37,581 bases of DNA from a virus. This document shows positions 15,486 to 28,163 of the stretch, piece by piece. Position 1 is the stretch's first letter; every line of letters starts with the position of its first letter. The stretch is from the IMG/VR virus record IMGVR_UViG_3300012351_000018, positions 1 to 37,581 of that record. One strand, given 5' to 3'. The position numbers and the translations under genes were made by a program. The notes beneath the pieces were generated by a model. The model searched no databases. It was not told where the DNA came from and worked only from the letters and a program-made list of their open reading frames with translations.

Positions 15486-17158
15486 TGGTTGGTTCTTCCT
15501 GCGAAGGGATCGAAGATCTGCGAGGCTTTCGCCTTACTGATCATTTCACCGACCAGACCCTTGTTGGCGCCCTCGGGGACGACGCACCCCAGTGCTCGCG
15601 CGTAGTTGAGCTGAGCCTCGGACGCCTCTCCCTTGCGCCACCGTGCACCGCGGCGGGCCAGGTAGGCTCCCAGCTCCTCCGCCTCCGCCTCCGCCCATGC
15701 CATGGCGGTTTCCAGCGGCATACCGAGGTAGTCCGTACCGGTCCACTTCAGCGGGTTGCCCTTGGGATCGAGAGGAGCCACGCACACGTCCCAGGTACCG
15801 GGTTCACCGGCCCTGGTAGGCCACAGGAAGACGTATCCGCTGGGTCCGCACGGGACGAACCACACGCCCTGCGGGGTCTGCCCCCAGGCGGAGGAGGACG
15901 AGGCGAACAGGTCGAAGTCCTTGCCGGAGCCTACCGCCAGAAGTTCCTTCGGTTCAGGCTTCGGGCAGGTGCACGCTCCGCGAGGCAGTCCGCATTCCTC
16001 GCACAGGCACTGGCAGGGGAGGCAGCCACAATCGTCGCACGGCCCCCGTTGCTTGAAGAATCCCTCTTCTAGGTCGATCAGGGTGGCCAGCTTGTTGGAC
16101 TGGGAAGCTCCCACGACATCGAGAACCAGGGCGTCAGTCTTCCCCGGGAAGGGCCGCAGCACCCGGCCTACCATCTGCACATAGAGCGGGTTGGACTGGG
16201 TGGGCCGCACGATGACGGCGCAGGATGCCCACGGGGCGTCGAAGCCTTCCGTCAGGACCATGCAGTTGCTCAGTACCCGGATCTCGCCACGCCGGAAGGC
16301 GTCGTAGATCCGGAGCCGTTCCGCCCGGGGCGTCTCTCCCGAGATCACCGCAGAGGAGATCCCCCTGCGGGTCAGTTCCTGCGCCATGATATGGGCCGTG
16401 GCCACGGTCGGGGTGAATGCCACCCCCGGGCGGTCCTCGGCGTGCTCCAGGTAGGCGTCGGCGGCCACGGTCAGAGCGCTGGAGTGTTCGAGCGCGTCCC
16501 CCAGGTCGCCGGTCTGGAAATCTCCGCGCGACTTCTTGACCGCAGATAGGTTCAGGTCGTCCACCTTGACGGATCGGCCCCGGGGCGCCACCAGGAATCC
16601 GTGTTTGACCGCGTAAGCCAGCGTCTTGGAATAGACGACGTCATCCCACACGGACCCTAGTCCGATGCCGTCCGAGCGTGCGAGCGTCGCGGTGAACCCG
16701 ACGTGGTGAGCGCCCTTAGTGGCTTCGTAGATGCCCCCGTAGACCGGAGCGACACCGTGGTGACATTCATCAGTGATGACGAGTCCTACCCGGGGTCCAC
16801 GGCCGTACAGGAGCTCCTTCAACCGGGTCCCTCGGGCGAGAGTCTGCACGCTGGCCACGACCACATCAGCGTTGACGTCGTTGTTCTCCGCCTTGACCTT
16901 TCCCACCCAGAGGTGGGGCGCCACGGCCTTGAGCTTGGACATAGCCTGATCGGCCAGCTCGTCACGGTGGACGAGGACGACGACACGGCCTCCGCGCTCC
17001 TGGTGGAACTTCGCGGCCAGGTGCGAGAAGACCACTGTCTTCCCCATCCCCGTGGGGAGTACCACGGCGGGCCGCCGGACCCCGTCCGACCAGGCAGAGG
17101 TCACCGCGTCGATGGCCTCACGTTGGTACGGACGGAGCGTAAGCAGTTCCTTACTCAC
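15482..17158 (-). CDS. Superfamily 2 DNA helicase (DEAD/DEAH-type, RecG/UvrB-like core)
   Basis: 558 residues. Q-motif-like LRPYQREAIDAV (8-19), Walker A VLPTGMGKTVVF (about 34-45), motif Ia VLVHRDELADQA, motif II VITDECHHG (DECH box), motif III GFTATLARSDG, then the second RecA domain with VLTEGFDAPW and motif VI QMVGRVLRPFPGK. After the helicase core is a cysteine-rich insert (CDDCGCLPCQCLCEECGLPR, ending ACTCPKP) that probably binds two zinc ions, and a C-terminal accessory domain. It uses ATP to unwind or remodel DNA at phage forks. GTG start overlaps the preceding stop by 4 bases. Helicases of this type are standard in the replication module of Streptomyces phages. Confidence 0.92.
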   Translation of the reverse strand: MSKELLTLRPYQREAIDAVTSAWSDGVRRPAVVLPTGMGKTVVFSHLAAKFHQERGGRVVVLVHRDELADQAMSKLKAVAPHLWVGKVKAENNDVNADVVVASVQTLARGTRLKELLYGRGPRVGLVITDECHHGVAPVYGGIYEATKGAHHVGFTATLARSDGIGLGSVWDDVVYSKTLAYAVKHGFLVAPRGRSVKVDDLNLSAVKKSRGDFQTGDLGDALEHSSALTVAADAYLEHAEDRPGVAFTPTVATAHIMAQELTRRGISSAVISGETPRAERLRIYDAFRRGEIRVLSNCMVLTEGFDAPWASCAVIVRPTQSNPLYVQMVGRVLRPFPGKTDALVLDVVGASQSNKLATLIDLEEGFFKQRGPCDDCGCLPCQCLCEECGLPRGACTCPKPEPKELLAVGSGKDFDLFASSSSAWGQTPQGVWFVPCGPSGYVFLWPTRAGEPGTWDVCVAPLDPKGNPLKWTGTDYLGMPLETAMAWAEAEAEELGAYLARRGARWRKGEASEAQLNYARALGCVVPEGANKGLVGEMISKAKASQIFDPFAGRTNQ

Positions 17159-17973
17159 TTCAGGTGACCCTTCAGGTGGTTCTCAAGGTTGGTCCGGCTG
17201 GTGAACTTCCAGTGGCACGACCAGCATTCGTACGCAGGGTCCCCCATGGCAGCGGCTGACAGGCGCAGGACTTCCGCCTCGTACGCCTTTCCAGCGCTTG
17301 CCGTACGGGGTACCTGTAGCTCCGCGTACTGCCGGACCTGTGCGCGGGTCGCCTCGACACCCATACGCCACCCCTGCGCCACGGGGGAGCCCCAGTAAGA
17401 GAGGAGGCTCTCCGGGATCGGAACGCCCATGTACACGCCGTGCGTGTCGCCACGGGTCTCCGAGCAGTCATCGCACGTGTCATCCAAGCCGCGACCGTGC
17501 TTGCAGGTGGCCTGCCCGCCCGGCGTGTACGCCTCTTCAAGTGCCAGGTCCATGCCCGAGTCGTGGGGGACGTGTGCTTCCTGCGCCTCGTCCATGCAGG
17601 GGCACATCGCGTGCATCATCGGGTTGATCTTCTTGCTACGGGCGGAGGCTGCGGCTTCCAGGGCATCGGCCAGACTCAGCCGACCCGCGTCCGCCGGGCG
17701 GTCGATACCGTAGTAGTCCAGAAGCGCTTGGGCCTGCGTCATCCGCCCCACGTCCGCCGGACGCTCAATTCCGTGGGTCTCCTTTAGCCACCCCCAGCCA
17801 GCCACGGTGATGATCGGAAGGTGCCTGCATCGGGGATCGCTTACGTGAGCGATGAGTCCCTGTCGAAGCAAAGCGTCCTCTGTACTTTTCACACAGAGGA
17901 CGCTCCCTCGGCTACTGCCGGAGGAGTCACGCAGCGCCTCAGCCATCTTCGGACTGAGCTTGATCTCGTTCAT
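17155..17973 (-). CDS. Protein with C-terminal classical C2H2 zinc finger, first gene of the leftward early operon
   Basis: 272 residues, ATG at 17973 after GAGGGGCAGG. The last 25 residues hold YECWSCHWKFTSRTNLENHL and KGHLK: Cys-x2-Cys-x12-His-x3-His with the Phe and Leu of the classical finger, a eukaryote-like spacing. The N-terminal 65 residues look like a winged-helix reader (MAEALRDSSG, EDALLRQGLIAHV, HLPIITVAGWGWL). Near residues 65-110 a short block repeats (THGIERPADVGRM and YYGIDRPADAGRL). A middle Cys/His-rich part (MHAMCPCMDEAQEAH, ATCKHGRGLDDTCDDC) may bind more metal. A DNA-binding regulator or adaptor for the helicase just downstream (GTGA overlap) is the most natural idea. 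Confidence 0.7.
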   Translation of the reverse strand: MNEIKLSPKMAEALRDSSGSSRGSVLCVKSTEDALLRQGLIAHVSDPRCRHLPIITVAGWGWLKETHGIERPADVGRMTQAQALLDYYGIDRPADAGRLSLADALEAAASARSKKINPMMHAMCPCMDEAQEAHVPHDSGMDLALEEAYTPGGQATCKHGRGLDDTCDDCSETRGDTHGVYMGVPIPESLLSYWGSPVAQGWRMGVEATRAQVRQYAELQVPRTASAGKAYEAEVLRLSAAAMGDPAYECWSCHWKFTSRTNLENHLKGHLK

Positions 17974-18006
17974 TTTCCTGCCCCTCGCTTCGGTTTCCGT
18001 TTCCAG

Positions 18007-18055
18007 GGGGCCGGGACTTGCGTTGCCAACCCGTGGCTTTCGCCGTCCCGGCCCC
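18007..18055 (-). ncRNA. Structured leader RNA element, copy C
   Basis: Minus strand. Outer arms GGGGCCGGGAC and GTCCCGGCCCC (11 bp, exact) enclose a core with a GGC-GAAA-GCC hairpin, then ACGG, then TTGGCAACGCAA. The core matches the two copies at 23584-23696: (G)RCGAAAGYCAC, 4-6 bases, TGGCARCGCAA, while the outer arms differ completely in sequence but still pair. It begins about 4 bases after the predicted transcript start of the promoter at 18066-18094 and ends about 35 bases before the first gene. I do not recognise it as a described RNA class. Confidence 0.72.
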
Positions 18056-18065
18056 TCTGAGAAGA

Positions 18066-18094
18066 ACTATCCTCCACTAGACATGAGTTGTCAA
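18066..18094 (-). promoter_or_regulatory. Main leftward early promoter TTGACA-17-GATAGT
   Basis: Minus strand CGCTTGACA with TTGACA at 18094-18089, a 17-base spacer and GATAGT at 18071-18066. It drives the helicase/nuclease operon. Its -35 box overlaps, on the other strand, the -35 box of the rightward promoter at 18088-18116. Confidence 0.78.
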
Positions 18095-23538: not shown

Positions 23539-23554
23539 AGGGCTTGACAGCCCT
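23539..23554. promoter_or_regulatory. Candidate operator AGGGCT-TGAC-AGCCCT
   Basis: A perfect inverted repeat centred on the -35 box of the promoter at 23544. The half site AGGGCTGTC(A/T)A recurs on one strand at the leftward promoter at 12370-12375 (AGGGCTGTCTA) and partly at 13561 (GGCTGTCAAGC). The small Xre regulator at 12504-12740 is a possible binder. Confidence 0.45.
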
Positions 23555-23572
23555 AGCCATGAGGCGTAGTAT
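23544..23572 (+). promoter_or_regulatory. Strong rightward promoter TTGACA-17-TAGTAT
   Basis: TTGACA (23544-23549), 17 bases, TAGTAT (23567-23572): the best sigma-70-type match in the window. Predicted start about 23579, five bases before the first structured RNA element. It drives the resolvase, the small-paralog array and probably terminase genes. Confidence 0.85.
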
Positions 23573-23583
23573 TTAGATCAGAA

Positions 23584-23636
23584 GGACAGAGGGGCCGACG
23601 AAAGTCACTGGTTGGCAGCGCAAGGCTCCTGGGTCC
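23584..23636 (+). ncRNA. Structured leader RNA element, copy A (tandem)
   Basis: Outer arms GGACAGAGGGGCC (23584-23596) and GGCTCCTGGGTCC (23624-23636) pair with two mismatches and one G-U. The 27-base core has a GAC-GAAA-GTC hairpin followed by ACTGG and TTGGCAGCGCAA. The core matches copy B nearly base for base and copy C on the leftward early transcript, whereas the arms have diverged with pairing kept, the mark of a selected RNA fold. Confidence 0.72.
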
Positions 23637-23643
23637 GGCTCAA

Positions 23644-23696
23644 CGAGGTAGCGGCTGACGAAAGCCACTAGATGGCAGCGCAAGGTCGCTACCTCG
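23644..23696 (+). ncRNA. Structured leader RNA element, copy B (tandem)
   Basis: Outer arms CGAGGTAGCG (23644-23653) and CGCTACCTCG (23687-23696) are exact complements. The core reads CTGACGAAAGCCACTAG then ATGGCAGCGCAAGG. Compared with copy A the small hairpin has an A-C mismatch (GAC/GCC). Only seven bases separate copy A from copy B. No gene lies in 23534-23779; this leader holds the promoter, both elements and the hairpins at 23700-23755. Confidence 0.74.
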
Positions 23697-23699
23697 GAA

Positions 23700-23755
23700 G
23701 GCCCAGGGCATAAGACTGGGCCCCCTGGGAGGAAAGAACACTACCCAGGGGGCCC
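23700..23755 (+). terminator. Attenuator: two mutually exclusive hairpins
   Basis: GGCCCAG (23700-23706) pairs with CTGGGCC (23716-23722). The second partner overlaps the 5' arm of a 12-bp stem, GGGCCCCCTGGG (23718-23729) with CCCAGGGGGCCC (23744-23755). Forming the first hairpin prevents the second, as in an antiterminator/terminator switch. There is no U run after the large stem, so it could instead act on translation. The SD of the resolvase gene lies 8 bases later. Confidence 0.6.
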
Positions 23756-23779: not shown

Positions 23780-24199
23780 ATGGCATCTTCACAGTACAGG
23801 CTAGGCGCAGACTTTGAAAACCGTACGCGGGATCGTTTCGAGGAAGCAGGGTATTACGTGGTCCGCTCGGCTGGCAGCCGGGGCGTGGCCGACCTCGTGG
23901 TCTTCGATGTGACAGCAGACCGCGTCAGCCGTTTCCCTGCCCCCCTGATGATCCAGTGCAAGCGCGGCCGTAACGGCCTGGGGGTAGAGGCGTGGAACCA
24001 CTTCTATGCCATTGCGGACGCGGCAGGATGCGTGCCGGTTGTGGCTGAGAAGAAGGAGGGCCGGACCCTGGAGTCCGACTTCTGGGAAGTGACCGGGTTC
24101 CGGACCCCGCGAGGGAAGCATAAGCCGTGGATTCCGTGGATTCTTAGGGGAGCGACCCCGACACTGTCAGTAGCGGAAATCATGGAGGAGCGGTCATGA
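23780..24199 (+). CDS. Holliday junction resolvase (Hjc-like PD-(D/E)XK nuclease)
   Basis: 139 residues, ATG at 23780 after CCGAGAGGCAGG. Catalytic pattern: RLGADFENRTRDRFEEAGYY (Glu of motif I), then RSAGSRGVADLVVF (Asp), then PLMIQCKRGR (Q-x-K), and a later WNHFYAIADAAG helix. This is the archaeal-type Hjc/RuvC-replacing resolvase fold often found in Streptomyces phages. It would cut branched replication or recombination intermediates before packaging. First gene of the transcript carrying the tandem RNA elements; its stop overlaps the next start by 4 bases. Confidence 0.85.
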   Translation: MASSQYRLGADFENRTRDRFEEAGYYVVRSAGSRGVADLVVFDVTADRVSRFPAPLMIQCKRGRNGLGVEAWNHFYAIADAAGCVPVVAEKKEGRTLESDFWEVTGFRTPRGKHKPWIPWILRGATPTLSVAEIMEERS

Positions 24200-28073: not shown

Positions 28074-28108
28074 GATGGGTGCGGGCATGAGCTGTCCCCG
28101 CACCCATC
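28074..28108 (+). terminator. Terminator after the terminase module
   Basis: GATGGGTGCGGG (28074-28085) and CCCGCACCCATC (28097-28108), exact 12-bp stem, 11-base loop, 20 bases after the last stop of the module. It separates the terminase region from the portal operon, so the head genes should have their own promoter or rely on antitermination. The remaining gap to 28164 has no clear promoter. Confidence 0.83.
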
Positions 28109-28163
28109 ACCTATTGGACAGATCGTGCACATAGAGCCATACTGAGCGTCGGGAGGCTAACCC

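Follow-up and report, generated by a model that had tools for sequence, protein, structure and literature searches.

A structured leader RNA at the start of two early transcription units in actinobacterial-type phages

Phage lambda carries a small conserved hairpin (nut/boxB) near the start of both of its early transcription units, and the hairpin is recognized through its loop. Stabilizers at the 5′ end of mRNAs, such as the ompA leader, likewise consist of a hairpin at the 5′ end of the message and depend mainly on the stem. The put RNAs of phage HK022 suppress pausing and termination without phage proteins by way of the β′ zinc-binding domain, and to our knowledge, very few structured RNAs of phage leaders that act on RNA polymerase have been described. 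Each put is about 70 nt long and forms two stem-loops; putL is found immediately downstream of PL, and the distance from the transcription start to putR is about 270 nt (PMC9378689).

The DNA analyzed here (the window) is a 37.6-kb metagenomic virus record that encodes a family-A DNA polymerase, primase, helicase, exonuclease, terminase, portal, capsid, tape measure, and endolysin. Because the GenBank phages nearest to the window infect Streptomyces and other actinobacteria, the host of the four phages found to bear the element described below is probably a Streptomyces-like or other actinobacterium. The element occurs on a replication unit (helicase and exonuclease) and on a resolvase-to-terminase unit. 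The rightward unit is preceded by a sigma70-like promoter, TTGACA-17-TAGTAT (23544..23572, +; predicted +1, A at 23580), and its first gene encodes a Hjc/RusA-like Holliday-junction resolvase (23780..24199, +; PHROG 244, with Pfam Hjc barely above the cut-off). The leftward unit is preceded by TTGACA-17-GATAGT (18066..18094, −; predicted +1, A at 18058), and its first gene (17155..17973, −) encodes a 272-amino-acid protein with a weak C-terminal zinc-finger match under the Pfam cut-off and with homologues in phages both with and without the element. The +1 positions were predicted from the conserved CTC/A spacing of sister promoters (slash, predicted start), in which the start is an A eight bases past the −10 hexamer in a context that is mostly CTC/AGA. 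The two promoters are two of the three sigma70-like sites found in the 8-kb region, where shuffled sequences gave an expectation of 0.7. The promoter family is represented in the window at 12375-12347 (−), 18094-18066 (−), and 23544-23572 (+) and also occurs in the related phages G001, G002, and G004; its conserved first transcribed stretch, CTC/AGAAGGACAGGG, is present with and without the RNA element and may be a signal in its own right.

Each copy of the element is about 50 nt long and consists of an outer stem, P1, of variable sequence, enclosing a nearly invariant 27-nt core with the consensus GRCGAAAGYCAC-NNGW-UGGCARCGCAA. The original prediction placed two tandem copies after the rightward promoter and a third on the opposite early transcript, and all three were recovered where they had been proposed. 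Copy 1 (23584..23636, +) combines a lower stem (23584-23587/23633-23636) with P1 (23590-23596/23624-23630) and a core at 23597-23623; copy 2 (23645..23695, +) has a P1 of 12 pairs (23645-23656/23684-23695) and a core at 23657-23683; and copy 3 (18005..18057, −), which follows the TTGACA-17-GATAGT promoter, has P1 at 18057-18045/18017-18005, such that the stem begins at +1/+2, and a core at 18044-18018. Copies 1 and 2 are spaced 60 nt apart and are 86% identical over 36 nt. Copies 2 and 3 folded much more stably than shuffled sequences (z = −5.7 and −5.5, respectively), and the effect was weaker for copy 1 (z = −1.8). Short core words in the window alone gave three matches against 0.7 and 1.4 expected, which is weak evidence, and the case for the element is therefore made from copies in other phages and from covariation in P1.

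A strict core pattern applied to 2.9 million viral contigs recovered three further real copies and one chance match, and looser core patterns on viral contigs added no copies. The further copies occur singly in G001 (L003/L008), G002 (L004/L010), and G003 (L005), phages that are related to the window: the DNA polymerases of G001 and G002 are about 81% identical to that of the window, and the helicase of G003 is 79% identical. With a covariance model, the six copies scored 66-77 bits, and the next best score in 753 kb of related phage sequence was 14. In all five leaders of the four phages, the element is on the sense strand directly after the promoter, within +1 to +10 of the predicted starts; pairing begins at +1 or +2 in the left copies and at +5 to +10 in the right copies. 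Thus, the expectation that related phages would carry further copies just after promoters, with compensatory changes, was borne out in G001, G002, and G003. We conclude that, with respect to predicted starts, the element is the 5′-terminal part of two early transcription units in the sense direction.

Alignment of the six copies required no internal gaps and yielded 23 invariant columns, 22 of which lie within the 27-nt core. In this sample of four phages, all metagenome records and some of them fragments, and with left-hand copies that are alike in P1 and so not fully independent, two-sided compensatory changes were found at 8 of 13 P1 pairs. The covariation score of P1 was 0.474 versus 0.169 for shuffles, a value reached by 0 of 500 shuffles, and 96% of the P1 cells were paired, versus 78% in shuffles. 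Shifting the P1 partner by 1 to 3 columns reduced pairing from 96% to 29-45% (about 44% for one base). Because pairing is conserved and is lost when the partner is shifted, the pattern points to a transcribed RNA rather than to a protein site in duplex DNA, and because the 22 core columns are invariant while P1 varies freely, the core is presumably recognized by something. The covariation support covers P1. Pairs within the core show next to no variation: energy favors two inner helices, CG/CG and GYCA/UGGC, around the 5-nt loop CNNGW, and these hardly change among copies. A competing inner fold, the GNRA hairpin GRC-GAAA-GYC within the core, is an alternative to GYCA/UGGC; the two deviations from the consensus, in copies 1 and 3, each turn it into a full Watson-Crick stem, but it has an A-C mismatch in four of the six copies. 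We conclude that P1 is, as judged by compensatory change, a real RNA stem.

Rfam 15 (4227 models), searched with permissive settings on short stretches, gave no match to the element and only chance-level matches otherwise, mostly to the neighboring hairpin or to microRNA models; with its covarying P1, the element thus stands as the unrecognized structured RNA that had been proposed. Among 84,980 bacterial and archaeal genomes, scanned with exact patterns that would miss diverged cores, the strict core pattern found no copy, and loosened patterns gave 20 matches, none of which combined a promoter with a convincing P1. The best of the 20, in Mycolicibacterium, was rejected, as it lies antisense inside a predicted membrane-protein open reading frame. 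The covariance-model genome search, which covered 395 genomes of the class of that match, returned the same match and two others in long open frames, which were also rejected, and L006, L088, L089, and L090 were set aside as chance pattern matches. In 50,697 phage and 72,556 plasmid records, the matches found by blastn were all partial and insignificant. Streptomyces phage Dagobah and Thermobifida phage P1312 (40 of 60 kb searched), the two nearest GenBank phages by terminase, contained no copy, and a search by left promoter sequence found no further element-bearing phage, only the element-free sister G006. Literature searches found no description of the element. We conclude that the element looks like a new, narrowly distributed family of phage leader RNAs.

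Sister phages indicated that the element can be absent. G002 carries the element on its left unit and lacks it on the right, and G004 lacks it at both tandem right promoters, its left unit being outside the contig. Both units of G005 and G006 are element free with orthologous genes, and the left promoter of G006 is orthologous as well. Equivalent leaders that lack the element but belong to the same promoter family, such as those behind the right promoters of G002 and G004, have almost no structure (−0.3 and −3.3 kcal/mol). By comparison of these phages, the element is an optional module of otherwise conserved leaders.

The original prediction also described alternative hairpins downstream of the tandem pair, and these were found: a short hairpin, GGCCCAG...CTGGGCC (23700..23722, +), which was identified by sequence, overlaps a strong GC hairpin 5′ of the resolvase gene (23718..23755, +), such that only one of the two can form. 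The GC hairpin, which has no U tract, is kept in five sister phages with or without the element and was thus seen in all six phages for which the region was available, with a different sequence each time followed by mostly similar bases. Because it is kept in phages without the element, the GC hairpin is not the dedicated partner of the element. The left leaders contain no hairpin between the element and the start codon. The density of strong hairpins in left units was 0.72, 0.48, and 0.48 per kb with the element and 0.21 and 0.79 per kb without it, such that the two sets overlap.

Several other features were observed in the window and its relatives. Upstream of the portal gene is a promoter, TGGACA-17-CATA(C/A)T, that is conserved across sister phages (window 28074-28143, +; G001 13563; G002 23175; G004 8488) and that, in the window, has a strong hairpin immediately 5′ of it; the right unit probably ends, and late transcription begins, in this region. 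Near the end of the portal gene, G001 and G004 contain, relative to the window, several hundred extra bases between two conserved parts (L058, about 10028-9565; L064, about 2029-2729), which might reflect an insertion or a split gene. At window 12010-11930 (−), a promoter-like site, TAGACA...TACTCT, directly follows a classic terminator whose T tract is long (GAAAGTCCCCGTTCCGGCGGGGACTTTTTTC). The right unit of G001 (L057/L058) contains, about 2.3 kb past its promoter, a perfect 22-bp hairpin, GGGCATGGAAGATGCCGCGGGT...ACCCGCGGCATCTTCCATGCCC, which greatly exceeds the unit's other hairpins in strength. The start of a cytosine-methylase-like gene (RVLDLFCNAGG / LALDLFCNAGGAGTG) adjoins the left promoter in G003 (L062 from about 2120, +), where it looks almost leaderless, and lies between the polymerase and resolvase genes in G006 (L067 7157-7810, +), as a mobile gene near element sites.

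An RNA with a recognized core in a variable stem, always in the sense direction and at the starts of early transcripts, is presumably bound by something during its synthesis. One way in which such binding could matter is if the element is a cis-acting structured leader RNA that modifies elongating polymerase, either directly or through a bound protein. The element would fold while emerging from RNA polymerase, and the invariant core would bind the transcription complex, contacting the host polymerase directly, like put, or by way of a host or phage protein, like nut. Polymerase would then disregard pause and termination signals, both within the untranslated leader and beyond it, and the two rightward copies would make the effect stronger or more reliable before the strong hairpin at 23718-23755 is reached. 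We rank polymerase modification first because it best fits an element that has an invariant core, occurs on both units, and is duplicated in tandem; it is a tentative choice that falls somewhat short of probable and leads its rivals by a small margin. The strong hairpin between the tandem pair and the first gene also speaks for polymerase modification, as does the failure to find cellular copies, but element-free sisters keep the promoters, the first genes, and the leader hairpin, and hairpin density does not clearly follow the element. Moreover, the left leaders have no hairpin before the start codon, and the hairpin in the right leader lacks a U tract. The narrower proposal, that the RNA, without any protein, contacts actinobacterial RNA polymerase during departure from the early promoter and confers termination resistance as an unrelated put-like invention, is unlikely. 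Polymerase modification alone also does not account for the strict 5′-terminal placement, because an antiterminator need not sit at +1. A 5′-end stabilizer fits that placement about as well as antitermination: the element could hide the 5′ end from enzymes that sense it or that degrade RNA 5′ to 3′ (RNase E, RNase J, and pyrophosphohydrolase) and so prolong the life of early mRNAs, in which case the core would be a compact nuclease-blocking fold or would bind a protective protein. Stems that pair from +1/+2 in the left copies, five leaders all within +1 to +10, and unstructured element-free equivalents, which imply that the element specifically alters the 5′ end, are consistent with such a shield, and optional presence suits a module that tunes fitness. 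A plain hairpin would suffice for shielding, however, leaving the invariant 27-nt core superfluous; in the right leaders, at least four bases at the 5′ end are unpaired, and the second of the tandem copies lies away from the terminus. We regard shielding as somewhat unlikely; if true, it would show how phages protect messages in RNase J hosts.

Other readings leave polymerase and the 5′ end aside. Hairpins that bind proteins usually look like this, with a small invariant core set in a variable stem, and the product of the left unit's first gene has a possible C-terminal zinc finger; the element could be the site for a phage or host RNA-binding protein that controls the translation or timing of both units rather than elongation. 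The family of that gene is also found in G005 and G006, however, both of which are element free, no candidate protein tracks the element, and the ribosome-binding site is tens of bases away, outside the element; control of this kind is distinctly unlikely. The original prediction also likened the arrangement to a riboswitch, and a ligand-binding riboswitch, tandem in the right leader, would be in keeping with the invariant core, the tandem copies, and the two hairpins, only one of which can form at a time, that follow the tandem pair in the window. That comparison fared poorly, as the copies have no common expression platform, whether a shared hairpin or a sequestered start, and in the left leaders and in G001, the element is not coupled to an alternative hairpin. 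No metabolic theme links the genes, no Rfam riboswitch matched, and ligand sensing is improbable. Least credible of all is that the element acts as DNA, for example as a site for a repressor or for replication initiation, and resembles an RNA by chance: its location at a promoter would suit an operator, but the arms keep pairing rather than sequence through compensatory changes, and the orientation is always with transcription. The small size of the element and its sharp division into core and stem make it readily tested by mutation. We conclude that the element is, on comparative sequence grounds, a real and new structured leader RNA of actinobacterial-type phages whose function we infer.

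Like HK022 put, which acts in cis, the element is a phage leader RNA on both early units of the window, where it lies downstream of both early promoters; G001, G002, and G003 carry single copies. Unlike put, with its two stem-loops, each copy is one stem-loop of about 50 nt with internal loops, located at +1 to +10, and an unfiltered cmsearch of HK022 20-36 kb with the element model gave no match (best, 8.6 bits; E 1.5). The element resembles lambda nut/boxB in being a small conserved hairpin near the starts of early units but has a larger core; the analysis identified no N-like protein, and inspection by eye revealed no boxA-like signal. As in stabilizers of the ompA type, a hairpin stands at the 5′ end of the message, but the element conserves its core, whereas those stabilizers depend mainly on the stem. 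Three features favor put-like antitermination: both early units carry the element, its core is invariant, and one copy is repeated in tandem. It is disfavored by the lack of a match in HK022, by one stem-loop instead of two, and by sister promoters, operons, and hairpins that are element free. If it acts on polymerase, the element would bring a leader-RNA mechanism to a different, actinobacterial polymerase. We conclude that the element is outside the put family by the features tested, that put-like antitermination is possible, and that the element may work like put.
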